From positions 310,001-374,000 of the forward strand of contig NZ_AMQY01000011.1 in NCBI RefSeq assembly GCF_000334215.1: a DNA stretch of 64,000 nt, written 5' to 3'. The translations under genes were made by a program, and so were the position numbers. Source of the DNA: Vreelandella jeotgali Hwa. Lineage in GTDB: Bacteria; Pseudomonadota; Gammaproteobacteria; Pseudomonadales; Halomonadaceae. Positions within the stretch are counted from its first letter, which is position 1. Each line of letters starts with the position of its first letter. The notes beneath the pieces are model-generated. The model searched no databases. It saw only the letters and a list, made by a program, of their open reading frames with translations, and was not told where the DNA came from. Positions 46,058-61,961 of this stretch are shown piece by piece.

Positions 46058-46143
46058 CGTCGCCGTGTTGTCGCAGCACCGTGTTAATGACACACGTTTT
46101 TAACAACATACGTTTAACAACATACGTTTAACAACAAACAGGA
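46054..46143. repeat. Degenerate tandem repeat, 3 x 16 plus 3 x 14 bp
   Basis: CTGACGTCGCCGTGTT (containing the dehydrogenase stop), GTCGCAGCACCGTGTT and AATGACACACGTTTTT, then two perfect 14-base copies of AACAACATACGTTT and a partial AACAACAAACAGGA that merges with the ribosome site of the hydratase gene. Confidence 0.85.
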
Positions 46144-46151
46144 GAACCGCC

Positions 46152-46943
46152 ATGAGCAACGCGACCTACAACAGCAGCGACCTGATCGACGTTCAGGAAC
46201 GCGATGGCGTTGTGCGCCTGACCGTTAATCGGCCCAAAGCGCTCAATGCGCTGAATCCCGAAGTGCTGGACGCCCTGAGTGAGGTGCTGGATAGCCTCGA
46301 AGCCAACGAAGGGCTGCGCGCGGTGATGCTGACCGGCGCCGGTGACAAGGCGTTTGTGGCCGGCGCGGATATTACCCGGATGCGCGAGCAGACCCCGCAG
46401 CAGGCGCAGGCGTTTGCCGGCCATGCGCTGGATACCGTTCGGCGGCTGGAAAAACTTCCGGTGCCGGTTGTGGCGCTGGTCAACGGTTTTTGCCTGGGCG
46501 GCGGCTGCGAGCTGGCGCTGGCCTGCGACTGGGCCGTGGCCAGCGACAATGCCATGTTCGGCCAGCCCGAAGTTCAGCTGGGGGTCATTCCCGGCTTTGG
46601 CGGTACCCAGCGGCTGCCGCGCCGGGTCGGGCCGGCGATGGCGCTGGACCTGATGACCACCGGGCGCAAGATCGACGCAAGCGAGGCGTTGCGCATCGGG
46701 CTGGTCAACCAGGTAATGTCACAAGCCGAGCTGGATGACTATGCCGAGAAACTCGCCGGCCAGCTGGCGGGCAACGGCCCCCGTGCGGTAGGAGCCGCCA
46801 AGTCGGCGGTATATGACGGCATGGAGCAGGACGTGGACAGCGCGCTCAAACTGGAGCAAAGCCTGTTTGCGCTCTGTTTTGCCGGTGACGAGCAGCAGGA
46901 AGGCATGGCCGCCTTTGTGGAAAAGCGCCCGGCCAGATTTTAA
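46152..46943 (+). CDS. Enoyl-CoA hydratase (crotonase family)
   Basis: A 263-residue crotonase. VNRPKALNALNPEVLDAL opens the fold, AFVAGADITRM forms the oxyanion-hole region, and GFCLGGGCELALACDW and FGQPEVQLGVIPGFGGTQRL carry the two catalytic Glu residues. It hydrates the enoyl-CoA made by the dehydrogenase just upstream; the pair is an operon separated by a 94-base repeat-filled spacer. AGGAG precedes the ATG by six bases. Confidence 0.88.
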   Translation: MSNATYNSSDLIDVQERDGVVRLTVNRPKALNALNPEVLDALSEVLDSLEANEGLRAVMLTGAGDKAFVAGADITRMREQTPQQAQAFAGHALDTVRRLEKLPVPVVALVNGFCLGGGCELALACDWAVASDNAMFGQPEVQLGVIPGFGGTQRLPRRVGPAMALDLMTTGRKIDASEALRIGLVNQVMSQAELDDYAEKLAGQLAGNGPRAVGAAKSAVYDGMEQDVDSALKLEQSLFALCFAGDEQQEGMAAFVEKRPARF

Positions 46944-47072
46944 CCCGGCGCTGATGCCGGGCCGGCATGGGTCTTAGGCAAGCACTGGCTTTCACGCAGG
47001 CATTAAGTCGGCTAACGACTTTTGTCTGAATTCATGATTTACTGGCGTGTTTTCAAACATCGGGAGCAAAAC

Positions 47073-48059
47073 ATGCCGCGACCCCGCTGCTTATGGCCGA
47101 CGGTTGTGTCGGCCCTTACCGCACTGCTGATACCTGCCCTGGCGCCGGCATCCGACGAGGCGTTGAGCCTGGAAGTGACCAACGACGGCATGATCAGTGT
47201 GGACGATGGCCACTACACTAGCGGTGTCAAACTCGGGTATAGCTTCAGACCCGAAGCCGCACACTGGACGCAGCGCTTTTCCCGGTGGCTGCCCGACACG
47301 CTGATCCAGCAGGCCGACCGGGCCGAATATCGTCTGGTCCAGCAGATTTATACGCCCATGAACATCAGGGCGTCGCGGCTGCTGGAAAATGACCGCCCCT
47401 ATGCCGGGCTGGTGTACGGCGGGGCGTCGCTTTACGGTGAGCAAAGCCGTCCCAACGGCCGTACCACCACCGATCTGCACCTGGACGTGGGGATGGTCGG
47501 GCCGTCTTCCCTTGCCGACAGTATCCAGCAGGAAGTCCACCGCCTGACGGGCAGTAATCGGCCCCAGGGCTGGGACCACCAGATCGGGGACGAGGCGATT
47601 GTCAACCTGGGCATGCGCCGCCAGTGGTGGCATGAAAGCCCGCTGGCCAGCAAGCAGCTGGCCTGGGGGCCGGAGGCGAGCATCGCGCTGGGTAATCTCT
47701 ATACCTATGCCAGCACCGGCTATTACCTGCGCTTTGGCGATGCCGCGAGAAGCGTGCCGACTCTGACGCCGAACTCGGCCAGCAGTGCCGGCTTTGATGC
47801 GGCAGACGGCTTTCGCTGGTATGTGTTCGGCGGGGTCGAAGGCTACTACATGGCGCGCAACCTGCTGCTGGACGGCAATACCTTTTCCAGCAGCCATTCG
47901 GTTGACCGGCGTGAATGGGTCGGCGATCTGTCGGCCGGCCTGTCATTGGCCTGGGATGACTGGCAGATGCGCTTTACGGCGCTGCAGCGCAGCCGGGAAT
48001 TCCACGGCCAGCAGGACCCCGACCGGTTTGCCGCGCTGACCTTCAGCAGGGCGCTGTAG
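47073..48059 (+). CDS. LpxR-like outer membrane lipid A deacylase
   Basis: A 328-residue outer membrane beta-barrel protein: signal peptide (VVSALTALLIPALAPAS), then VTNDGMISVDDGHYTSGVKLG, which matches the Asn-Asp catalytic start of LpxR, RPYAGLVYGGASLY, and LHLDVGMVGPSS with the probable catalytic His. It ends in alternating hydrophobic residues. LpxR removes the 3'-acyloxyacyl chain of lipid A. The start at 47073 has GGGAG upstream. Confidence 0.82.
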   Translation: MPRPRCLWPTVVSALTALLIPALAPASDEALSLEVTNDGMISVDDGHYTSGVKLGYSFRPEAAHWTQRFSRWLPDTLIQQADRAEYRLVQQIYTPMNIRASRLLENDRPYAGLVYGGASLYGEQSRPNGRTTTDLHLDVGMVGPSSLADSIQQEVHRLTGSNRPQGWDHQIGDEAIVNLGMRRQWWHESPLASKQLAWGPEASIALGNLYTYASTGYYLRFGDAARSVPTLTPNSASSAGFDAADGFRWYVFGGVEGYYMARNLLLDGNTFSSSHSVDRREWVGDLSAGLSLAWDDWQMRFTALQRSREFHGQQDPDRFAALTFSRAL

Positions 48060-50821: not shown

Positions 50822-51850
50822 ATGAAAAAAAAGCCTGCTTCCAACATTCCCCCCTGGATGCTGACCTACGCAGACCTGATGACGCTGCTGCTGTGCTTTT
50901 TTGTGCTGCTGCTGTCGTTTGCCGAGATCGATGCCGACAAGTTCCGCCGTATTGCCGGCGAGCTGTCCCAGGCGTTTGGCGTGCAGCGCGACATCGAAGC
51001 GATGCAGATTCCCAAGGGGACCAGTGCCGCGCTGGACAAGTTTTCTCCTGCCGTGCCGGACCGCACCCTGCTGGATGAAATCCGCCAGAAGACGATGGAG
51101 GAGGACCCGCAGCTGGAGGCCATGCGCGATAGGCTGGAAACCCGGCGCAAGGCGCAGACCCGCGACGTGGCAAAGCAGCTGCGGGAGCTGCTGGAGGAAT
51201 CGGGCAACAACGATGTGACCCATGTGGAAGTGGACGGTTTTCGGGTGGTGATCCGTATTGAAGAGAAGGGCACCTTCATGTCCGGCTCGGACCGGGTAAC
51301 CGGCACTTTTGAAACCTTACTCGAGGATATGTCGGGTATTTTTGTCGGCCTTCCCGGGACGGTATCCATTGATGGCCATACCGATAACCTGCCCATTCAT
51401 ACGCCGCGCTTCAGCAGTAACTGGGATCTCTCGGCGCTGCGTGCGGCCTCGGTGGCCAACATTCTGCAGCGCAACAGGGAACTTCAGCCGGAGCGGCTGC
51501 TGGTACAGGGGTTTGCCGATACCAACCCCCGGGCGAGCAACGAGACGGCGGAGGGTCGGGAAAAGAACCGCCGCGTGGAAATCACCATTGACCTGAGCGA
51601 AGCCACCGAGGAACGCGGCAGCCGGAATATGGAAACGCTGCGCGAAGCGCCCGCCGCCGCGGAATCGGCCGCCGATACGCCGTTCGGCAAGCCCCTCGAC
51701 CGCGTGCTGCTTTCGCCGCCCGAGCCGGCGACCGGGCAGGAACCGCCGGCAGAAGGCAGCGAAGACGGCAGCGAAGGTGGTGGCGAAGATAGTGGTGAAG
51801 ACGGTAGTGAAGACAGGCGCGAAGACAGCGGCAAAACGCCGCCGCCATAA
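50822..51850 (+). CDS. pomB: Flagellar stator protein PomB/MotB
   Basis: A 342-residue partner of PomA. PPWMLTYADLMTLLLCFFVL is the single membrane helix with the ion-binding Asp (Asp 18 in YADLMT); the OmpA-like peptidoglycan-binding domain spans about 150-260 (SIDGHTDNLPIHTPRFSSNW, RNRELQPERLLVQGFADT). The last 40 residues are an unusual Glu/Asp/Gly/Ser-rich tail made of near-repeats (EDGSEGG, EDSGEDG). It follows pomA by three bases. Sodium coupling is inferred from PomB-like sequence (FFVLLLSFAEID). Confidence 0.88.
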   Translation: MKKKPASNIPPWMLTYADLMTLLLCFFVLLLSFAEIDADKFRRIAGELSQAFGVQRDIEAMQIPKGTSAALDKFSPAVPDRTLLDEIRQKTMEEDPQLEAMRDRLETRRKAQTRDVAKQLRELLEESGNNDVTHVEVDGFRVVIRIEEKGTFMSGSDRVTGTFETLLEDMSGIFVGLPGTVSIDGHTDNLPIHTPRFSSNWDLSALRAASVANILQRNRELQPERLLVQGFADTNPRASNETAEGREKNRRVEITIDLSEATEERGSRNMETLREAPAAAESAADTPFGKPLDRVLLSPPEPATGQEPPAEGSEDGSEGGGEDSGEDGSEDRREDSGKTPPP

Positions 51851-52836: not shown

Positions 52837-52962
52837 AAAATCTCCAGCGCTTGATGAAAGGTCACGCTATCCTGCCGGATAATGGCAGCCAACGTGGATG
52901 ATGGCGGTTTCGCCCCCGATGATTCGGCTCATCGAGGCGAGAAACGCTGTGCTTCAGGCGAC

Positions 52963-52986
52963 AACATGCGACAATGTATGTAAATT
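52963..52986. promoter_or_regulatory. Probable TetR operator upstream of tolC
   Basis: ACAT-N7-TGTATG with ACAT at 52964-52967 and TGTATG at 52975-52980. The same pattern with the same spacer occurs upstream of acrA and of the tetR gene. Confidence 0.55.
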
Positions 52987-53088
52987 GCCGCCATGCAGGG
53001 GCGAGGCTGTTCCCCGTCCTGCTGGCTCCGCTATATAAAACGATGGCCCGCATCGCCTTAACGACCGAATTATCACGAGGATAACGCC

Positions 53089-54522
53089 ATGCTGCGACAG
53101 CCCCTATCTTTTGCCCTGATCTCGGCGCGCCGTGCGCTTTTGCCATCGCTGGTGGCAGCGGCATGGGCGGTGCCCGCGTGGTCGGCAGACCTGTTAACTA
53201 TCACCCGTGACGCCCTGGATAGCAACGCGGCGCTGGAGTCGGCCGAGGCCGTGACGGAGAGTACCCGGGCAGCGCGCGAAGCCGAGCAGGGTAACCTTTT
53301 GCCGCAGATCAGGGCCGAGGGTAGCGTCGCTCACAGCGAACAGTTCGAGCGCCAGACTCGCTCGGGGCCTGCCGGTGCGGGAAACCAGGACGACAGCGTC
53401 AACAGTGCCAGCTTTACTCTGGAAGCGACCCAGGCGCTGTTTGATGCGCTGGACAGCCGTGAAGTCACCCGGGCCGAGCGCCAGGTGGATCAGCAGGTGT
53501 ACCAGCTGGCGGCTACCGAGCAGGAAGTGCTGATCAACGTGGCATCGGCCTATTTCGAGATCCTCCGCGCTCACGAGATTCTGGAAGCGCGCCGCGCCCA
53601 GGAGCGCGCCATCGGCCGCCAGCTGGAGCAGGCCAAGGAGCAGTTCGACGTTGGCCTGATTGCGGTCACCGAAGTGGAAGAAGCCCAGGCACGGTTTGAT
53701 CAGTCCCGGGCCGAACGGATCGCCGCCCAGAGCAATCTGCAGGTGCGTTTTGAAGCGCTCGAACGCCTGACCGGCGAACGCTATTCCAGCATCGAGGCGC
53801 TCGCCGACGAGGTGCCCGTCAAGGCGCCGGTTCCCGATGATCGTCAGCACTGGGTCGAGCTGGCCATCGAGAAAAACCCCAGGGTGCTGGCCAGCCAGGC
53901 GGGTATCGAGGTGAGCGAAAGCAATGTGGATATTGCCCGAGCCGGCCGGCTGCCCGAGGTCAATGCCTTCGCCCGGTACAACCATGACGACAATGATGCC
54001 GACGGCGTCGATGGCTATAACGCTGAAGGCCAGGTGGGTGTGCAGTTGAGCCTGCCGATCTACACCGGCGGTACCACCACGGCGAACATTCGTCGCAATA
54101 CCTATCAGCTGAAATCCAGCCAGTATGATTTTGAAGACCAGCGCCGCGAGACTGTTCAGCAGGTGCGTTCGCGCTATACCCAGGTCAGCAACGATGTCTC
54201 TACGGTGGAAGCTCGCCGTCAGGCAGTTGTCTCCAACCAGAGCGCGCTGGATGCGACCCGCGCCGGCTATGAGGTGGGTACGCGCAATATCGTCGATGTG
54301 CTGGATGCCGAACAGAACCTTTACAACGCCATGGCCGACTATGCCAGTGCCCGCTACGATTACGTCATCAACCTGCTGACGCTGCGCCAGCAATCCGGCG
54401 TGCTGGATGAAAAGGCGCTGGAAAAGATCAACGGCTGGCTGAGCGATGACAGCGTCAGCCTGACGCTGCCCGAAGCTGACGCGAGCAGCGTAATGGACAT
54501 CGGCGAACGCCCGGAAAAGTGA
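53089..54522 (+). CDS. tolC: TolC-family outer membrane efflux channel
   Basis: A 477-residue outer membrane factor: signal peptide (SLVAAAWAVPAWSA), then the duplicated TolC fold with long coiled-coil helices, the two halves meeting near residue 260. Conserved pieces include YFEILRAHEILEAR, LSLPIYTGGTTTANI and the YEVGTRNIVDVLDAEQNLY motif of the second half. It forms the trans-envelope tunnel for the AcrAB-like pump encoded next. An operator-like site and AT-rich promoter lie upstream; CGAGG precedes the ATG. Confidence 0.9.
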   Translation: MLRQPLSFALISARRALLPSLVAAAWAVPAWSADLLTITRDALDSNAALESAEAVTESTRAAREAEQGNLLPQIRAEGSVAHSEQFERQTRSGPAGAGNQDDSVNSASFTLEATQALFDALDSREVTRAERQVDQQVYQLAATEQEVLINVASAYFEILRAHEILEARRAQERAIGRQLEQAKEQFDVGLIAVTEVEEAQARFDQSRAERIAAQSNLQVRFEALERLTGERYSSIEALADEVPVKAPVPDDRQHWVELAIEKNPRVLASQAGIEVSESNVDIARAGRLPEVNAFARYNHDDNDADGVDGYNAEGQVGVQLSLPIYTGGTTTANIRRNTYQLKSSQYDFEDQRRETVQQVRSRYTQVSNDVSTVEARRQAVVSNQSALDATRAGYEVGTRNIVDVLDAEQNLYNAMADYASARYDYVINLLTLRQQSGVLDEKALEKINGWLSDDSVSLTLPEADASSVMDIGERPEK

Positions 54523-54550
54523 ACGCCGCGAACCGCGTGATCCAGGAGGT

Positions 54551-54575
54551 CGGGAGCGGCCGCGCGCCGCTCCCG
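54551..54575. terminator. GC-rich hairpin between tolC and acrA
   Basis: Perfect ten-base-pair stem CGGGAGCGGC with GCCGCTCCCG, five-base loop, followed after nine bases by TTTT. It may act as an attenuating terminator, which would make acrAB a separately controlled unit. Confidence 0.6.
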
Positions 54576-54614
54576 TAACTCGACTTTTATATTTCCATCG
54601 CTTTCTTTTATATT

Positions 54615-54638
54615 TACATGCATCTGTGTATGGATGTA
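54615..54638. promoter_or_regulatory. AcrR-like operator upstream of acrA
   Basis: A 24-base imperfect palindrome beginning TACATGCAT and ending ATGGATGTA. It resembles the 24-base AcrR operator of E. coli in both halves and contains the ACAT-N7-TGTATG pattern shared with the tolC and tetR upstream regions. Confidence 0.75.
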
Positions 54639-54682
54639 GGCTCTGCACATTCTGTCAGGCCGTTAACGGACAAAAGGACATC

Positions 54683-55978
54683 ATGAAAACGACGTTGAGT
54701 AGAGCTGGCCGCGTGGCGTTTTTGCTCGGGGCCGGTGCGCTGCTGGCTGCCTGTGGCGATGACGCACCCGACCAGGCCCAGCAGAAGGGCGAGGGGCAAA
54801 AAGCCAGCCCTCGTTCGGTAGAGGTCGCCACCGCCGAACGCCAGGACATTGCGCTGGAAAAATCCTATCCGGCGCTGCTGCGCAGCGATGACGAAGCCAC
54901 TCTGGTCGCCCGGGTGACCGGCACCCTGGAAGAAAAACTCTTCGAGCCCGGGGAAATGGTCGAGAAGGGCGACACGCTTTACCGCATCGAGCCCGATCGC
55001 TATCAGACCGCGGTTAATCAGCGCAAGGCGGATCTGGAAAGCGCACGCGCCAAGCTGTCACGCGCCCAGCGCGATGCCCAGCGCTTCGAGCGGCTGCTCA
55101 AGCAGAACTCGGTCAGCCGTCAGCAGTACGACCAGGCGCTGGCCGATCGGCGTGTGGCCCAGGCAAGCGTGGCTCAGGCCTCCGCCGCGCTGGAAAGCGC
55201 CCGTATTGATCTGGACTACGCCGGCGTCACCGCGCCGGTGTCGGGCATGGTCAGCCTGAGCATGGTCAACGTCGGCAACCTGGTGAATCCCGGTACTCGG
55301 CTGGCGACCATTACGCCGCTGGACCCGCTCGAAGTGCGCTTTCAGCTGCCTCAGCGCGACGCCTCCGAACTGCGTCAGCAGCTGGACGACGGCACCGGTA
55401 TCGAGACTATCGGCGCCGCGCTGGAGCTGCCGGACAGCGATACCCGCCTGAATGGCCATCTGGATTTTCTCGGTGTGCGCGTGGATGAAGCCACCAGCAC
55501 CGTCCAGGCCAATGCCAGCTTTGCCAATCCGGACGCCCGGGTGCTGCCCGGTCAATACGTGCGTGTGCACCTTGAAGGGCTCAAGCGCTACGACGTTCTC
55601 GCCGTGCCGGAAATTGCCATGACCCAGGGGCTGATGGGCCCACAGGTGTTTGCCCTGGATGAGGACGATGTGGCCCGAGCGCGCACCGTCGAGCTGGGTG
55701 AGCTGGCCGGCCCCTGGCAGATTCTGCGCGACGGCGTGGAAGCCGGCGACCGTTTGGTCGTGGGCGACCCGGCCGGGCTCAAGCCGGGAACGCCGATCAA
55801 ACCGGAGTCGTTTGACGGCGATGCCGCCGCGCTGATGGAAAAGGCTCGGGAAGAAAAGCAGGCCAGCCAGGCGCAAAAGCAGCCGGATGGCGGTAATGAG
55901 AAGGCCGCGCAGGACGCCACGGATGAAGGCGACTCAGCGGAGGAGCAGAACGCGCCGGCTCAAGAGGACGCGGCGTAA
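54683..55978 (+). CDS. acrA: RND efflux periplasmic adaptor lipoprotein (AcrA-like)
   Basis: A 431-residue membrane fusion protein. The signal peptide ends in LLAACGDD (lipobox). A lipoyl-like half (ARVTGTLEEKLFEPGEMVEKG), an alpha hairpin (residues 110-170, ESARAKLSRAQRDAQRFERL), the second lipoyl half and a beta-barrel follow; the last 40 residues are a low-complexity Glu/Gln/Ala tail. It links the inner membrane pump to TolC. AAAGGA precedes the ATG. Its stop and the acrB start share one base (TAATG). Confidence 0.9.
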   Translation: MKTTLSRAGRVAFLLGAGALLAACGDDAPDQAQQKGEGQKASPRSVEVATAERQDIALEKSYPALLRSDDEATLVARVTGTLEEKLFEPGEMVEKGDTLYRIEPDRYQTAVNQRKADLESARAKLSRAQRDAQRFERLLKQNSVSRQQYDQALADRRVAQASVAQASAALESARIDLDYAGVTAPVSGMVSLSMVNVGNLVNPGTRLATITPLDPLEVRFQLPQRDASELRQQLDDGTGIETIGAALELPDSDTRLNGHLDFLGVRVDEATSTVQANASFANPDARVLPGQYVRVHLEGLKRYDVLAVPEIAMTQGLMGPQVFALDEDDVARARTVELGELAGPWQILRDGVEAGDRLVVGDPAGLKPGTPIKPESFDGDAAALMEKAREEKQASQAQKQPDGGNEKAAQDATDEGDSAEEQNAPAQEDAA

Positions 55979-58900
55979 TGAATTTCTCCAACTTCTTCAT
56001 CAAGCGGCCGATTTTCGCGACGGTCATTGCCATCATCCTGACCGTTGTCGGGGTGATGAGCATGCGCGTGCTGCCCATCGAGCAGTATCCCAGCATCGTG
56101 CCGCCCACCGTGTCGGTGAGTGCCCAGTTCCCCGGCGCTGACGCCGAAACCGTGGCACAGACCGTGGCCGCGCCGCTGGCCGAGTCGATCAACGGCGTCG
56201 AGGACATGCTCTACATGACCTCGACCAGCGCCGATAACGGCTCCATGAGCCTGTCCGTGGCGTTTGATATCGGCACCGACGGTGATATCAACACCATCAA
56301 CGTCAACAACCGGGTGCAGGGAGCGCTATCGCAGCTCCCCGAAGCGGTGCAGGATCAGGGCGTCGAAGTCGAACTCAGGTCCAGCTCGATTCTGATGCTG
56401 ATTTCGATGATTTCCCCCGATGGCGACTACGACCGTGTCTATCTGCAGAACTACGCCACGCTCAACGTCCTGGATGAGCTGCGTCAGGTACCCGGCGTCG
56501 GCGAGGCCGAGGTGCTGGGCGGCGGCGAGTTTGCCATGCGTATCTGGATGGACCCCAACAAGCTGGCGCAGTATGACCTGACGCCGGCCGAGGTGGCGTC
56601 GGCCATTCGCGCCCAGAACACCGAGGTGCCGGCGGGTAGCCTGGCCGCGACGCCCCAGGACGAGCCGCGTGCCTTTACCTATACCATTACCGCCGGTGGG
56701 CGCCTCAATAACGTCGAGGACTTCCGCAACATTGCCCTGCGTACCAACCCCGACGGCTCTTCGCTGACGCTTGACGACGTCGCCCGCATCGAGCTTGGCG
56801 CGTCGTTTTACGGCGTCGAGGCGCGGCTGAACGGCGGTACCATGGCGCCCATCATTATCAACCAGCAGCCCGGCGCCAACGCCCTTGAAACCGCCGAAGC
56901 GGTCAAGGAAACGATGGAAGAGCTCAAGCAGCGCTTCCCCGAGGGGCTCGACTACGTGGTGCCCTACGACACCACGCTATTTATCGACGCCTCGGTGGAA
57001 ACCGTTCTGCACACCTTCATCGAAGCCTTCCTGATCGTGGGTGTGATCCTCTTCATCTTCCTGCAGAACTGGCGTTTTACCGTCATCGCCATGTCGGTTG
57101 TACCGGTATCGGTGCTGGCGACCTTTGCCGGGTTTTACATGTTCGGCTTTTCCATCAACCTGCTGACGCTCTTCGCCCTGGTGCTGTCCATCGGCATCGT
57201 GGTGGATGACGCCATTCTGGTGGTGGAAAACGTCGAAAGGGTGCTGAGCGAGGAAGACCTGAGCGTACGCCAGGCGACCATTCGCGCCATGCAGGAAGTC
57301 GGCGGGCCGATCATTGCCACGTCGCTGATCATGGCGGCGGTCTTTGTGCCGGTGGCTTTCCTTGGCGGCTTTACCGGGCAGATTTATCAGCAGTTTGCCA
57401 TGACGGTTGCCATCTCGGTGGGCTTCTCGGCGCTCATGGCGCTGACGTTCACCCCGGCGCTGTCGGCCATTTTCATCAAAAAGAAGAAGGACACCGAAGA
57501 GTCGAAGGCGATGCGCGCGCTGCATACGCCGCTGCGCCTGTTTGACCGCCTTTTCGCCGGCATTACCGCGGTCTATATGGCGGCGGTCAAGGTGCTGGTG
57601 CGCTTCTGGGGGCTGGCGCTGGTGTTGACGGCGCTGGTGTGCGGGGCGACCTGGTGGCTGTACGAGACCACGCCCGCCTCGCTGGTACCGGAAACCGACC
57701 AGGGGATCGTGCTGGCCAGCGTCTCGTTGCCCGACTCTGCTTCGCTGTCGCGCACCCGGGACTATATGTCGGAGCTGTCCGAGCGCATCGAGGAGATTCC
57801 CGGCGTGGAGTATTCCTCGGCGGTGGCCGGCTACGACATGCTCTCCAGCGCGGTGAATACCGCTCGGGGCATCATGTTCATCAACATGAATGACTGGAGC
57901 GAGCGCGACCTGACGGCGGATCAGCTGGTGGGTAAAATCATGAAGCTGGGCGCCGAGGTGGAAGGCGGTACCGCCAGGGCGTTCAACGTCCCGCCGATCA
58001 TCGGCCTGTCGACCACCGGTGGCTTTACCGGCTATCTGCAGTCGTTTGACGGCGCCTCGGCCAAGGAGTTGTACCAGGCGTCGCTCAAGATCATGCAGGC
58101 CGCCGGCGAGGACCCGCGTCTTGAGCAGGTGTTCACCACATTCAACGTCAACGTGCCCGGCTATCGCGCCGAGATCGACCAGCAGAAGGCGCTCAGCTAC
58201 GGCGTATCGCTGCCGGCGCTGTACTCCACCCTGTCGAATACGCTGGGTAACGGCTTTGTTAACTACTTCAGCTATCAAAACCGCAACTTCCAGGTCTATC
58301 TGCAAAACGAGGACGAATTCCGCAAGACGCCGGATAATATCGGCGATATCTATGTGCGTGGCGGCAAGGGCGAGCGGATTCCGCTGTCCGAATTCGTGAC
58401 CCTGGAGCGTCAGACCAAGCCGTCGGTTGTGTCGCGTTTCGGCGTCTACCTGGGCGCGCAGTTCCAGGGCCAGCCGGCCGAGGGTTACAGCTCGACTCAG
58501 GCCATCGACGCCATGGAAGAGCTGGTGCACGAGACCCTGGGCGACGGCTGGGGCATGGGCTGGACCGGTACCGCCTATCAGGAATCCAACCAGGGTAGCG
58601 CGGCGACGCTGGCGATTATCTTCGGCATGATGATGGTGTTCCTGATTCTGGCGGCCCAGTACGAAAGCTGGTCGCTGCCGCTGGCGGTTCTCACCGCTAC
58701 GCCCTTCGCGCTGTTCGGCGGCATCGGCGGCATTGCCCTGCGCGGGCTGGACAGCAGCGTGTACGTGGAAATCGGCATGCTGGTGGTCGTGGGGCTGGCG
58801 GCGAAAAACGCGATCCTGATCGTGGAGTTCGCCGAGCTGCAGCGCAAGGAGCTGGGCAAGAGCATTCGCGATGCGGCCATTCACGCGGCCGAGCTGCGTT

Positions 58901-59160
58901 TCCGGCCCATCGTGATGACATCGTTTGCCTTTATTCTGGGCACCCTGCCGCTGGCACTGGCCACCGGCGCGAGTGATACCAGTAGCCACCACATCGGCAC
59001 CACGGTGTCGGTCGGCATGGCCACGGTGGCCATCGTCTCCAGCTGCTTTGTTCCCAGCTTTTATGCCATGATTGCCGGCATTGCCGACTGGATTCAGCGC
59101 AAGCGAGGAGTCAGCAGGTATGAGACGCCTGCCACGGACGCTGATGCGCCCGCGGAGTAA
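55978..59160 (+). CDS. acrB: RND multidrug efflux transporter (AcrB-like)
   Basis: A 1,060-residue HAE1-type pump with twelve membrane helices. The start MNFSNFFIKRPIFATVIAI is typical; VLSIGIVVDDAILVVENVER in helix 4 carries the two proton-relay Asp residues, and helix 10 has GLAAKNAILIVEFAELQ with the relay Lys. Porter and docking domains lie between helices 1-2 and 7-8. It should expel drugs, dyes, detergents or solvents with AcrA and TolC. A strong terminator follows. Confidence 0.92.
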   Translation: MNFSNFFIKRPIFATVIAIILTVVGVMSMRVLPIEQYPSIVPPTVSVSAQFPGADAETVAQTVAAPLAESINGVEDMLYMTSTSADNGSMSLSVAFDIGTDGDINTINVNNRVQGALSQLPEAVQDQGVEVELRSSSILMLISMISPDGDYDRVYLQNYATLNVLDELRQVPGVGEAEVLGGGEFAMRIWMDPNKLAQYDLTPAEVASAIRAQNTEVPAGSLAATPQDEPRAFTYTITAGGRLNNVEDFRNIALRTNPDGSSLTLDDVARIELGASFYGVEARLNGGTMAPIIINQQPGANALETAEAVKETMEELKQRFPEGLDYVVPYDTTLFIDASVETVLHTFIEAFLIVGVILFIFLQNWRFTVIAMSVVPVSVLATFAGFYMFGFSINLLTLFALVLSIGIVVDDAILVVENVERVLSEEDLSVRQATIRAMQEVGGPIIATSLIMAAVFVPVAFLGGFTGQIYQQFAMTVAISVGFSALMALTFTPALSAIFIKKKKDTEESKAMRALHTPLRLFDRLFAGITAVYMAAVKVLVRFWGLALVLTALVCGATWWLYETTPASLVPETDQGIVLASVSLPDSASLSRTRDYMSELSERIEEIPGVEYSSAVAGYDMLSSAVNTARGIMFINMNDWSERDLTADQLVGKIMKLGAEVEGGTARAFNVPPIIGLSTTGGFTGYLQSFDGASAKELYQASLKIMQAAGEDPRLEQVFTTFNVNVPGYRAEIDQQKALSYGVSLPALYSTLSNTLGNGFVNYFSYQNRNFQVYLQNEDEFRKTPDNIGDIYVRGGKGERIPLSEFVTLERQTKPSVVSRFGVYLGAQFQGQPAEGYSSTQAIDAMEELVHETLGDGWGMGWTGTAYQESNQGSAATLAIIFGMMMVFLILAAQYESWSLPLAVLTATPFALFGGIGGIALRGLDSSVYVEIGMLVVVGLAAKNAILIVEFAELQRKELGKSIRDAAIHAAELRFRPIVMTSFAFILGTLPLALATGASDTSSHHIGTTVSVGMATVAIVSSCFVPSFYAMIAGIADWIQRKRGVSRYETPATDADAPAE

Positions 59161-59203
59161 GGCGTTGTTGCCGGTGTGACTCAGGCACCGGCCGCGTTAC
59201 CAG

Positions 59204-59231
59204 GCACCGGCTTTCGAGCCGGTGCTTTTTT
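59204..59231 (+). terminator. Rho-independent terminator after acrB
   Basis: Nine-base-pair stem GCACCGGCT / AGCCGGTGC capped by a stable TTCG tetraloop (59213-59216) and followed by six T. Confidence 0.92.
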
Positions 59232-59382
59232 ATAGCGGCCTGTTTTATAAAAGGTCTTTATAAGGAATTGTCTTATTTGACTGTTTGGCGTCATCGCCGC
59301 TTCTACCGTAGGTTCTGACGGGTATTTCATGCTTTTATGATATATACTGAAGGCAGGCGTTAAACGGGCAAGGAGGGAGACT

Positions 59383-60057
59383 ATGGAAGCGGTTAAAGCG
59401 TTGTTGCTCAGCTTTCCCATGTTCGTGTTCAGCCTGCTGGTGCCGCTGGTTGTGCTGTACTGGGTGCTGGTGACCCTGCGTCTGGTGCCGGTGGAGCTGT
59501 TCGAGCGCGATAGCCTGCGCCACGAGCAGACGGCGAGCACCCTGGTATCGCTGGGATTTGCCGGTGTGCCGGCTACTTTTGCGCTCAGCGTGCTGATTCT
59601 GCTGGCCGGGTTGGTGACCCTGGCGGTTGAAGCCGTTGTCCTGAGCCGGCTGCCGCTGGGGCTGTTTCGCGTGCCCCTGGGCGTGGCCGTGCTCTGGGCG
59701 TCGTTCGCGCTGGTCTCACCGCTGGCGGCGCGGATCTGCCACAAGACTCACCGGTGGTTTCACGGGCAGCGTCGTACGCTGCTGGGTGAAACCGTTGAAG
59801 TTACCAGCGAGCCGGATGACGACGGCTGGGCCAGCGCCGAGCTGCTTAGCGATCGGGAATGCAGCGTACGCCTGCACGGCAAGCCGCAAGGCGGCAGCAT
59901 GCCTCACCTGGGGGAGCATCGCGTGTTGGTCAAGCTCATCGCCGAGGAAAACGCGTATCGCAGCGTGACAACCGATGCCTACTGCGAAGCCCGGATGCAC
60001 GCCAAACGGCTGACGCTGGGGCAGCGGACGGCATCGCACCAGGAGCGCTCGCGGTAA
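59383..60057 (+). CDS. Membrane protein with OB-like C-terminus (YqiJ/NfeD-like)
   Basis: A 224-residue protein with three membrane helices in the first 120 residues (FPMFVFSLLVPLVVLYWVLV, FALSVLILLAGLVTLAVEAV, VPLGVAVLWASFALVSPLAA) and a soluble domain after residue 125 that looks like a small beta-barrel (LGETVEVTSEPDDDGWASAE). The layout resembles YqiJ/DUF1449 proteins, which usually sit beside a flotillin gene; none is present here. Function unknown. GGAGG precedes the ATG. Confidence 0.65.
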   Translation: MEAVKALLLSFPMFVFSLLVPLVVLYWVLVTLRLVPVELFERDSLRHEQTASTLVSLGFAGVPATFALSVLILLAGLVTLAVEAVVLSRLPLGLFRVPLGVAVLWASFALVSPLAARICHKTHRWFHGQRRTLLGETVEVTSEPDDDGWASAELLSDRECSVRLHGKPQGGSMPHLGEHRVLVKLIAEENAYRSVTTDAYCEARMHAKRLTLGQRTASHQERSR

Positions 60058-60110
60058 CGGCTTTAGAGGCGCTGAATCCGCGGATTTGGCCATTCGAGCC
60101 AGCTTGACCG

Positions 60111-60166
60111 CGAGCTCAGCAAAGGCTGTTCAACAAAGGTATTCAACGAGGGCTGATCAACAGAGG
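60111..60166. repeat. Degenerate tandem repeat, 4 x 13-15 bp
   Basis: Units CGAGCTCAGCAAAGG, CTGTTCAACAAAGG, TATTCAACGAGGG and CTGATCAACAGAGG. On the minus strand each contains TGA in the context GTTGAnC or GCTGAGC, like the TGA stop of the tetR gene just to the right (60181-60183). Confidence 0.7.
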
Positions 60167-60180
60167 CCGGAAGGCGCCGC

Positions 60181-60795
60181 TCAGGCATGCTGCATCAGCG
60201 CAAGCTGGGTATCGACCAGTCGGGCGCCTTCCCTGGAGATGGAGTAGCGCTCGTAATTGCGCAGCCAGTCGTGGAATAGCCCGGCCAGCATGGCCTGCAT
60301 GATTTGCGCCGCGACGTCCGGTGCCAGGCAGGGGCGCAGCTGGTGCAGGCTGGCGGCCATGTTGAAGTATTTGAGCAGCGCGTTGCAGGTATCGGCCGAC
60401 ATTTCGTTCTGCATTCCCAACGGATCAATGTCGCCAAAGGTTTCACAGTGGTGAAGCACAATGGCATGCACCCGGCGGTAGCGCGGTTCTTCCAGGCGGG
60501 AAAATCCCTTCAGACAGGCCAATCGCACCGCTTCCAGCGGCTGCTGGTCAACGGTCCGGTCATCCAGCTCCTGTATCAGATCTTCAAACGGCAGGCGTAC
60601 GCGCTGCAGCATGGCGTGGAAAAGATCCACCTTGTTTTTGAAATGCCAGTACACGGCGCCCCGGGTCATGCCGGCGTGGCGGGCAATCTGGTCCAGCGAG
60701 GTGCGGGCAACGCCACGGACAATGAACATATCTTCGGCGGCATCCAGCAGGGCTTCTCGCGTGGCAGCAGCTTCGGCTTTGGTTTTTCGCGCCAT
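60181..60795 (-). CDS. TetR-family repressor of RND efflux (AcrR/TtgR-like)
   Basis: A 204-residue repressor. The N-terminal DNA-binding domain reads ATREALLDAAEDMFIVRGVA, then GMTRGAVYWHFKNKVDLFHA, which is the recognition helix of the AcrR/TtgR/MtrR group. The C-terminal ligand domain belongs to the AcrR-C type. It most likely controls the pump genes 1 kb away and itself: the ACAT-N7-TGTATG motif lies upstream of tolC, acrA and this gene. It would release DNA on binding a drug. Confidence 0.87.
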   Translation of the reverse strand: MARKTKAEAAATREALLDAAEDMFIVRGVARTSLDQIARHAGMTRGAVYWHFKNKVDLFHAMLQRVRLPFEDLIQELDDRTVDQQPLEAVRLACLKGFSRLEEPRYRRVHAIVLHHCETFGDIDPLGMQNEMSADTCNALLKYFNMAASLHQLRPCLAPDVAAQIMQAMLAGLFHDWLRNYERYSISREGARLVDTQLALMQHA

Positions 60796-60854
60796 GATCC
60801 GGCAACCTGAATGATGAAACGGCGGCCATAGTCTACGCCACTGCCGCGTTTTTT

Positions 60855-60878
60855 TACATTCAAAACTGTATGGATAGT
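60855..60878. promoter_or_regulatory. Probable TetR operator upstream of the tetR gene
   Basis: Starts TACATTCA and includes TGTATGGAT; 16 of 24 positions match the palindrome upstream of acrA. It lies about 60 bases before the repressor start, fitting autoregulation. Confidence 0.6.
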
Positions 60879-60962: not shown

Positions 60963-61961
60963 TTACGCCGCCGCCGTTGTTTTAACGCGTCCCAGCGCAT
61001 CGTCGTACACGCTGAGTCCGGCGCCGTCGCGGTGGGCATTTTCCGCCAGATGGCGGCGGAACTGGCGCCCGCCCGGGCAGCCCTGAAACAGCCCCAGGGT
61101 GTGGCGGGTGATATGGTTGAGCTTGGCACCGTCCGCCAGGCGCTGCGCGATGTAGGGGCGAAACGCCAGCGCTGCCTGCATGCGCTCGTCGGCAGGGTTG
61201 GGCACGCCGTACAGTCGGCGGTCCACATCGGCGAGTTGCCAGGGGTTTTGATAGGCTTCGCGGCCCATCATGACGCTGTCGACTCGCTCCAGCTCGTCGG
61301 CGCAGGCGTCCAGGCTGGTCAGCCCGCCGTTGATGCCAATATGCAGCGACGGATGACGCGCCTTGAGACGATGCACCCGGGCACGATTCAGCGGCGGCAC
61401 GTCGCGGTTTTGCCTGGGCGAGAGCCCCTCGAGCCAGGCCTTGCGTGCGTGGACCGTGAATATCTCGCCGCCGGCCTCGGCCACGGTGGTAATAAAATGC
61501 TCCAGGTCGGCATCTTCGTCCTGGTCGTCAATGCCGATACGGCACTTGACCGTCACCGGGATCGTGACCGCCGCCTGCATGGCTTTTACCGCTGCGGCGA
61601 CCTTGTCGGGGTAGGCCATCAGGCAGGCACCGATCAGGTTGTTCTGCACCCGGTCGCTCGGGCACCCCACGTTCAGATTCACCTCGTTGTAGCCCCACGC
61701 CTCGGCAATGGCTGCGCATTCGGCCAGCGCCCCGGCGTCGCTACCGCCCAGCTGTAGCGCCAGCGGATACTCGACCGCATCATGGCCCAGAAAACGCTCA
61801 CGCGGCGAGCCGTATAGTATCGCCCCGGTCGTGACCATTTCGGTATACAGCAGCGCTCGGCGGGTCAGCGTTCGAGAAAAAGCGCGAAAATCCCGCGTGG
61901 TGCGCTCCATCATCGGCGCGACGGAAAAGCGGCGGGCATCATTGGCCAGGTGAGCTGTCAT
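60963..61961 (-). CDS. dusA: tRNA-dihydrouridine(20/20a) synthase DusA
   Basis: A 332-residue FMN enzyme. RFSVAPMMERTTRDFRAF opens the barrel, LALQLGGSDAGALAECA follows, the catalytic Cys lies in NLNVGCPSDRVQN, VTVKCRIGIDD and FTVHARKAWLEGLSPRQNRD bind FMN, and GINGGLTSLD plus MMGREAYQNPW close it. It reduces uridine 20 and 20a of tRNA D-loops. Single gene, upstream of the tetR gene in the same direction. Confidence 0.93.
   Translation of the reverse strand: MTAHLANDARRFSVAPMMERTTRDFRAFSRTLTRRALLYTEMVTTGAILYGSPRERFLGHDAVEYPLALQLGGSDAGALAECAAIAEAWGYNEVNLNVGCPSDRVQNNLIGACLMAYPDKVAAAVKAMQAAVTIPVTVKCRIGIDDQDEDADLEHFITTVAEAGGEIFTVHARKAWLEGLSPRQNRDVPPLNRARVHRLKARHPSLHIGINGGLTSLDACADELERVDSVMMGREAYQNPWQLADVDRRLYGVPNPADERMQAALAFRPYIAQRLADGAKLNHITRHTLGLFQGCPGGRQFRRHLAENAHRDGAGLSVYDDALGRVKTTAAA

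Follow-up and report, generated by a model that had tools for sequence, protein, structure and literature searches.

Do the genes for an efflux channel, an efflux pump and a TetR-type regulator answer to one and the same operator? The question is raised by a 64,000-nucleotide stretch of Vreelandella jeotgali Hwa (contig NZ_AMQY01000011.1, positions 310,001 to 374,000; hereafter the window, whose own numbering is used), which holds tolC, acrA, acrB and a regulator gene (here tetR), and for which the original prediction had placed the motif ACATN7TGTATG upstream of tolC, acrA and tetR. A pattern search confirmed this, with exact matches at 52964-52980, 54616-54632 and 60856-60872, at distances of 108 bases to the start of tolC (53089), 50 to that of acrA (54683) and 60 to that of tetR (60795, minus strand). 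On both strands of the 2.85 Mb genome these three promoter sites were the only matches, so that the motif is not one with many unrelated occurrences genome-wide; 1.1 matches are expected from the base composition of the window, and a reversed control pattern gave 0. Taken with the data below, this makes it very likely that one AcrR-like repressor of the TetR family acts at three promoters, including its own, via one type of operator.

The sites also stood out when scored by a matrix built from 120 sites of relatives only, with the nearest relative left out: the tetR site reached 39.9 bits, the acrA site 37.2 bits and the tolC site 23.8 bits, and the best non-overlapping place in the 64 kb 2.2 bits. 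All three contain an 18-letter dyad, ACATnCn-N4-nGnATGT, with 10 fixed letters (tolC 10/10, acrA 9/10, tetR 9/10). Compared with the 24-base frame of an AcrR-type operator, an inverted repeat of the form TACATACATT-N4-AATGTATGTA, the acrA site matches at 16 of the 20 arm letters and so qualifies as an operator of this type, and the tetR (15) and tolC (14) sites have one good 18-letter dyad each. The acrA site had been described as a 24-base palindrome much like the Escherichia coli AcrR operator; 20 of 24 letters are indeed common to both (E. coli sequence as given in PMC10597343), but the palindrome is imperfect, with 8/12 pairs. No other place in the genome matches the 24-mer pattern without a mismatch. 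When one mismatch to the motif was allowed, the genome gave 15 matches (3 exact) against 3 for the reversed control, and at three mismatches 70 against 39. Among the twelve one-mismatch places, the matrix gave 30.6 bits to a site before a mipA-like gene, discussed below, 23.1 bits to C23:100806, 2.2 bits to window position 50844 and at most 15.2 bits to the other nine. The second of these (C23:100806-100822, L248) lies between a serine dehydratase-like gene, so named by reading, and a plus-strand open reading frame (ORF). Within the window, the only other place reaching 14/20 arm letters is a repeat at 46105, with a matrix score of -0.2 bits. It belongs to tandem AACAACATACGTTT copies at 46103-46135, which precede a gene (46152-46943) read as enoyl-CoA hydratase-like, and the repeat is perhaps the site of another regulator.

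The features of the locus are as follows.

52948-52982, plus strand: tolC promoter-operator; operator AACATGCGACAATGTATGTA at 52963-52982 with the exact motif, the same 20-mer in relatives including the asymmetric centre
53089-54522, plus strand: tolC, outer membrane channel of the TolC family (TIGR01844, 334.4 bits, cut-off 225.15; PF02321)
54551-54575, plus strand: hairpin between tolC and acrA, without U-tract and so no canonical terminator
54613-54642, plus strand: acrA promoter-operator; 24-mer operator TACATGCATCTGTGTATGGATGTA at 54615-54638, same architecture in relatives
54683-55978, plus strand: acrA-like periplasmic adaptor (TIGR01730, 275.3 bits, cut-off 94.9), a lipoprotein by its N-terminus
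55978-59160, plus strand: acrB-like permease of the resistance-nodulation-division (RND) type (TIGR00915, 1064.6 bits, cut-off 940.35)
59202-59237, plus strand: strong intrinsic terminator after acrB, with an 11-bp stem and T run
59383-60057, plus strand: 224-codon ORF (orf224) between pump and repressor, no operator upstream
60181-60795, minus strand: tetR, repressor gene of the AcrR/MtrR/TtgR-like TetR type (TetR_N, TetR_C_2)
60830-60876, minus strand: tetR promoter-operator; operator core 60856-60872, from an alignment of relatives
60963-61961, minus strand: dusA

With TIGR01844, TIGR01730 and TIGR00915 all above their cut-offs, the three parts constitute a pump of the AcrAB-TolC type; their scores stay below the cut-offs of the TolC, AcrA and AcrB equivalogs of E. 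coli. The regulator is a member of the TetR family (PF00440, 62.8 bits, cut-off 24; PF08361, 43.4 bits, cut-off 22). Its identity to E. coli AcrR is 32% overall, with 36 identical positions among the first 60 residues, and the recognition stretch TRGAxYWHF is common to both proteins. The nearest solved chains are NalD, SmeT, TtgR, AcrR and MtrR, and the best-matching named genomes hold proteins with 86% (a Halomonas) and 83% (a Vreelandella) identity, which places the window among the Halomonadaceae.

Conservation was followed by searching the TetR protein in 151 genomes of the family. A match at 1e-30 was found in 118, and 60 loci were fetched and their genes marked by tblastn; these loci are mostly the best TetR matches with a few weaker ones, and the layout counts given below lean to nearer relatives. 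For each 280-base upstream stretch the best site was scored in the 24-base frame with its 20 arm letters. At least 13/20 letters were found upstream of tolC in 25/25, of acrA in 38/56 and of tetR in 55/60 stretches (shuffles 4/75, 3/168 and 7/180), and upstream of the control genes acrB and orf224 in 1/42 and 0/36. The region upstream of yqfO103 was tried as a further control and discarded as not clean (3/14 at >=13), since this intergenic stretch also contains the tolC promoter. Allowing at most one mismatch, the relatives had an upstream site in 24/24 cases for tolC, 38/55 for acrA and 58/59 for tetR. In 16 divergent loci acrA and tetR have one operator in common, which was entered under each of the two genes, in these counts as well as in the matrix; when these loci were removed, the dyad at 9/10 letters was still present before tolC in 20/23, acrA in 24/40 and tetR in 36/44 loci, compared with acrB 0/42 and orf224 1/36. 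In 80 named genomes (five of them Marinobacterium, and some probably the same records as in the 151-genome set) the tetR site was exact in 71 and had one mismatch in 8; a control stretch inside the gene gave 0/80.

Alignment with relatives also suggested where the promoters lie. The tolC promoter would consist of a weak -35 (52948-52953) and an extended -10, TGC-GACAAT (52967-52975), in the centre of the operator; this centre is conserved though asymmetric, and the extended -10 reads GATAAT in the nearest relative (L034). For acrA, a putative -35 TTTACA (54613-54618) is followed by a spacer filled by the operator and by a -10 TAGGCT (54637-54642) overlapping the operator end. The predicted -35 of tetR, TGTAAA (60858-60853), is itself the end of the operator and is separated by a 17-bp spacer from a -10 TAGACT (60835-60830), which in relatives reads TAGAAT or TAAAAT about 17 bases after TGTAAA. 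All three architectures would suit a repressor that blocks polymerase, and operators at both pump and repressor promoters are what a self-regulated efflux repressor calls for. The TetR protein (60181-60795) would then be a repressor like AcrR, MtrR and TtgR that a ligand releases from the DNA, and its dimers would bind ACATnCn-N4-nGnATGT over the tolC -10, between the acrAB -35 and -10 and over its own -35. Without substrate, RNA polymerase would be kept off all three promoters; once a toxic compound is bound, the channel, pump and repressor genes would rise together, and the system would then shut itself off. In L037, L040, L045-L047, L050, L053 and L059, a TTAG-N4/5-CTAA palindrome lies directly 5' of the acrA -35, a possible site for a second acrAB regulator; the window has no such palindrome.

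With separate promoters and separate operators, tolC and acrAB could be transcribed independently and yet be repressed jointly. This had been predicted partly from the hairpin between them, which exists (54551-54575; 10-bp stem, -26.4 kcal/mol, z -3.0) but is poor evidence for separate transcription: as a terminator it was rejected as the main evidence, having no U-tract and no counterpart in a stem search of L034. The acrA promoter-operator is the better evidence. A hairpin without U-tract makes read-through likely, and one might thus assume a single tolC-acrAB transcript from the tolC promoter, with the acrA site as a secondary operator. Among the 32 relatives' loci with tolC adjoining acrA, the acrA site scores >=14 in 17 and <=11 in 15; the latter, which have no acrA operator, fit such a transcript, and 14 of them have the same pump (L035 has a different one). 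For the window, however, this reading is unlikely, as the acrA site is the sole 0-mismatch 24-mer in the genome and the acrA promoter-operator is kept in 38/55 upstream regions of relatives and is present also where tolC is unlinked. Eleven genomes of genus g1 that have no acrA site were followed farther upstream, and 11/11 had an exact site of another form, GCATACATACATGAATGTAACTA, before tolC. Two promoters with two operators, as in the window, are therefore one of two states, the other probably being a single tolC-acrAB operon. On the TetR tree, absence of the acrA site requires three changes and is thus not confined to one lineage; no direction of change was drawn from this. One operator at three promoters, with joint repression, is supported at the level of sequence by the uniqueness of the sites, the leave-out matrix, conservation, co-occurrence with TetR and unlinked tolC genes.

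These unlinked tolC genes were found with the tolC-type site AACATGCGACAATGTATGTA, which occurs with at most two mismatches in 37/151 genomes (reversed control 0). Twelve matches lie away from the TetR locus, and in 10 of them, the exceptions being L146 and L147, a tolC gene starts just downstream. The ten site-bearing genes all belong to genus g19 and are 40-67 kb from tetR in eight cases and on other contigs in two; in the eight whose TetR locus was read, tetR is divergent from acrA. Three further unlinked tolC genes (L148, L149, L155) were detected with the pattern TTACATNC-N5-TGTATG. The window itself lacks the divergent acrR-acrAB layout: tetR is convergent with the pump genes, its near end 1.0 kb beyond acrB. 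This distance had been called unusual, and it does differ from E. coli, but in this family convergent genes set apart in this way are the most frequent layout. By script-assigned labels, the 60 loci comprise 38 convergent ones with the orthologous pump, 16 divergent ones, 5 convergent ones with another RND pump and 1 other. On the TetR tree, the window belongs to a group of 27 rows with support (97/98); every row is labelled convergent, and four have another pump as neighbour. In L035, L041, L042, L043 and L084 the neighbour of the same TetR gene is another RND pump, whose acrB has 30-46% identity to the window's; pumps seem to have been exchanged next to a repressor that stayed in place. L080 and L081 stand midway between the divergent and convergent layouts: tolC lies behind tetR, and the space from tetR to acrA holds two successive operators. 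The ORF at 59383-60057, behind the acrB terminator, is membrane-protein-like and has a homologue in at least 36 of the 60 relatives' loci; it matched no family at 1e-3 and DUF6450 only below threshold.

Is the neighbouring regulator the protein that binds these sites? The pattern TTACATNC-N5-TGTATG is present in 102/118 genomes with the TetR gene compared with 1/33 without it (Fisher 1e-19), 13 of the 33 being known as TetR-less by elimination, and the sole motif in a TetR-less genome lies inside an ORF. In other systems a single pump is controlled by several TetR proteins, and operators can be common to TetR regulators whose helices are alike. The sites might accordingly be bound mainly by another TetR-family protein, with the neighbouring gene one of several players, and many other g1 genomes do hold a second relative of the TetR protein with 35-38% identity. 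We regard this as improbable, since the only match to the protein at 1e-30 in the window's genome is the gene 60181-60795 itself, the motif is nearly absent where the gene is missing and the protein's own promoter carries the site in 79/80 named genomes. Even less probable is that the protein activates some of the three promoters, since, although sites alone do not reveal the sign of control, all three operators overlap a predicted promoter element (-10 or -35) or spacer, a position in which a dimer on the DNA stands in the way of polymerase, and those close relatives whose function is known act as repressors.

Some observations weigh against a single AcrR-like repressor at all three promoters. 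Separate control of acrAB is not universal, with 17/55 acrA upstream regions having no site; L253 is the single named genome of the 80 without a tetR site, the tetR site of L091 scores just 11/20, and 16/118 TetR-bearing genomes have no exact motif. As the genomes are related, the fairer figure for the link between motif and TetR gene is the one by genus, 13/17 compared with 1/7 (p 0.009). A general promoter scan gave 3 sites (shuffles 2.3), none of which is one of the three inferred promoters. The protein also missed the curated cut-offs for AcrR (NF007949, 131.7 bits, cut-off 271) and MtrR (NF051852, 135.9 bits, cut-off 280) and is for this reason AcrR-like rather than AcrR. Nevertheless, one AcrR-like repressor at the three promoters is the reading that we follow.

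Does the operator reach beyond the pump? Some motif matches of the family-wide scan stood before lpxR (PF09982) and mipA (PF06629) genes, and both were examined with the dyad at 9/10 letters as threshold. The lpxR set comprised 109 upstream stretches from 108 genomes, second fragment matches of G043, G114, G118, G124 and G146 being set aside. The dyad was found in 71/88 stretches from TetR-bearing genera compared with 0/21 from TetR-less genera (p 2e-12), or by genus in 9/11 compared with 0/6 (p 0.002), with 11/1090 in shuffles and 24/1966 in random window stretches. It is general in genera g2 (10/10), g4 (18/18), g19 (11/13) and g20 (10/11). Membership of lpxR as a general rule is opposed by g8 (0/3), g16 (0/2) and g12 (1/5), and by g1, where 18/23 stretches have the dyad but 16 of these 18 at 9/10 letters only. 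The half-sites of the lpxR sites are spaced as in the tolC site; the letters within the dyad (ACATACG, CGTATGT) are unlike those of the acrA and tetR sites, and on account of these inner letters the sites could belong to a second regulator whose operator is similar. We nevertheless consider lpxR quite likely to be a member of the regulon in relatives. For the window's own genome this is not claimed: no site was found upstream of its lpxR gene (47022-48059, 5 kb before tolC; best 8/10 letters) or upstream of lpxR in the nearest relative, G144 (best below 9/10).

For mipA, 30 of 52 matches were scanned, and 20/30 loci carried the dyad (shuffles 6/300); against membership, the site is missing from 10/30 loci and matches at 9/10 letters only in 17 of the 20 that carry it. 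In the window's genome one such site was listed:

C14:296858-296881 (L236): site before a mipA-like gene (C14:296926-297696, PF06629), 30.6 bits by the leave-out matrix

This site begins 64 bases before the start and scores above the tolC site. At three mismatches the 24-mer pattern gave three places compared with two for the control, and the mipA site is therefore not significant if judged by this count; it is backed by where it lies, by how it scores in the matrix and by the relatives. On balance, we favour mipA as a fourth regulon member in this genome. The statement that the motif defines an efflux regulon thus holds for the three pump and repressor sites but takes in too little, as the regulon probably also includes mipA in this genome and lpxR in relatives. 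Pseudomonas aeruginosa MipA is described as binding polymyxins and as needed for induction of MexXY-OprA (PMC10936184), and Salmonella LpxR as deacylating lipopolysaccharide (PMC6260217).

We lean, at somewhat better than even chances, towards a repressor that runs a dispersed outer-envelope regulon of tolC, acrAB, its own gene, LpxR (lipid A deacylase) and MipA/OmpV-type proteins, in which operator-promoter modules may have stayed attached to their genes during reshuffling of gene order. The reshuffled orders comprise the divergent and convergent ones, those with tolC unlinked and, probably, those with tolC-acrAB as one operon; in the lineage of the window mipA carries the site and lpxR does not. 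At the level of sequence, the three sites are strongly supported and the remainder well supported. Efflux and the outer membrane are two barriers that jointly keep drugs out; should lpxR and mipA belong to the regulon, a single repressor that senses drugs would adjust both together, the outer membrane through its composition, lipid A surface included. The family offers a natural series on how a three-part machine stays in step when its genes scatter.

How does this compare with known systems? NalD (mexAB-oprM), SmeT, TtgR and MtrR are repressors of three-part pumps and the nearest solved relatives of the window's TetR protein. In their systems, the channel gene is part of the pump operon behind one operator, whereas the family described here has separate operators for channel and pump, and an unlinked tolC keeps its site. 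The divergent Halomonadaceae loci (16/60) have the same operator and the same tetR promoter architecture as the window, but one operator common to tetR and acrA, and tolC has its own site in the ten unlinked cases. In E. coli, AcrR is likewise a self-regulating TetR repressor of an RND pump, with the recognition stretch and the 20/24 operator letters mentioned above; its 24-mer holds the 18-letter dyad twice, overlapping (10/10 and 9/10 letters). Unlike in the window, acrR is divergent from acrAB with one operator between them, and the best match upstream of E. coli tolC is 11/20, at chance level, while in the window an operator stands before tolC itself. The E. coli protein is described as reaching tolC via marRAB and soxRS (PMC9769551) and as having dispersed targets too, such as flhDC (PMC10597343). 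Among open-literature titles, none on Halomonas or relatives dealt with a TetR repressor with its own tolC site or with AcrR-like control of lpxR. Overall, the regulon is real, conserved and of a familiar kind, but it has two peculiarities: an operator of the channel's own and, probably, a reach of the operator to outer-membrane genes.

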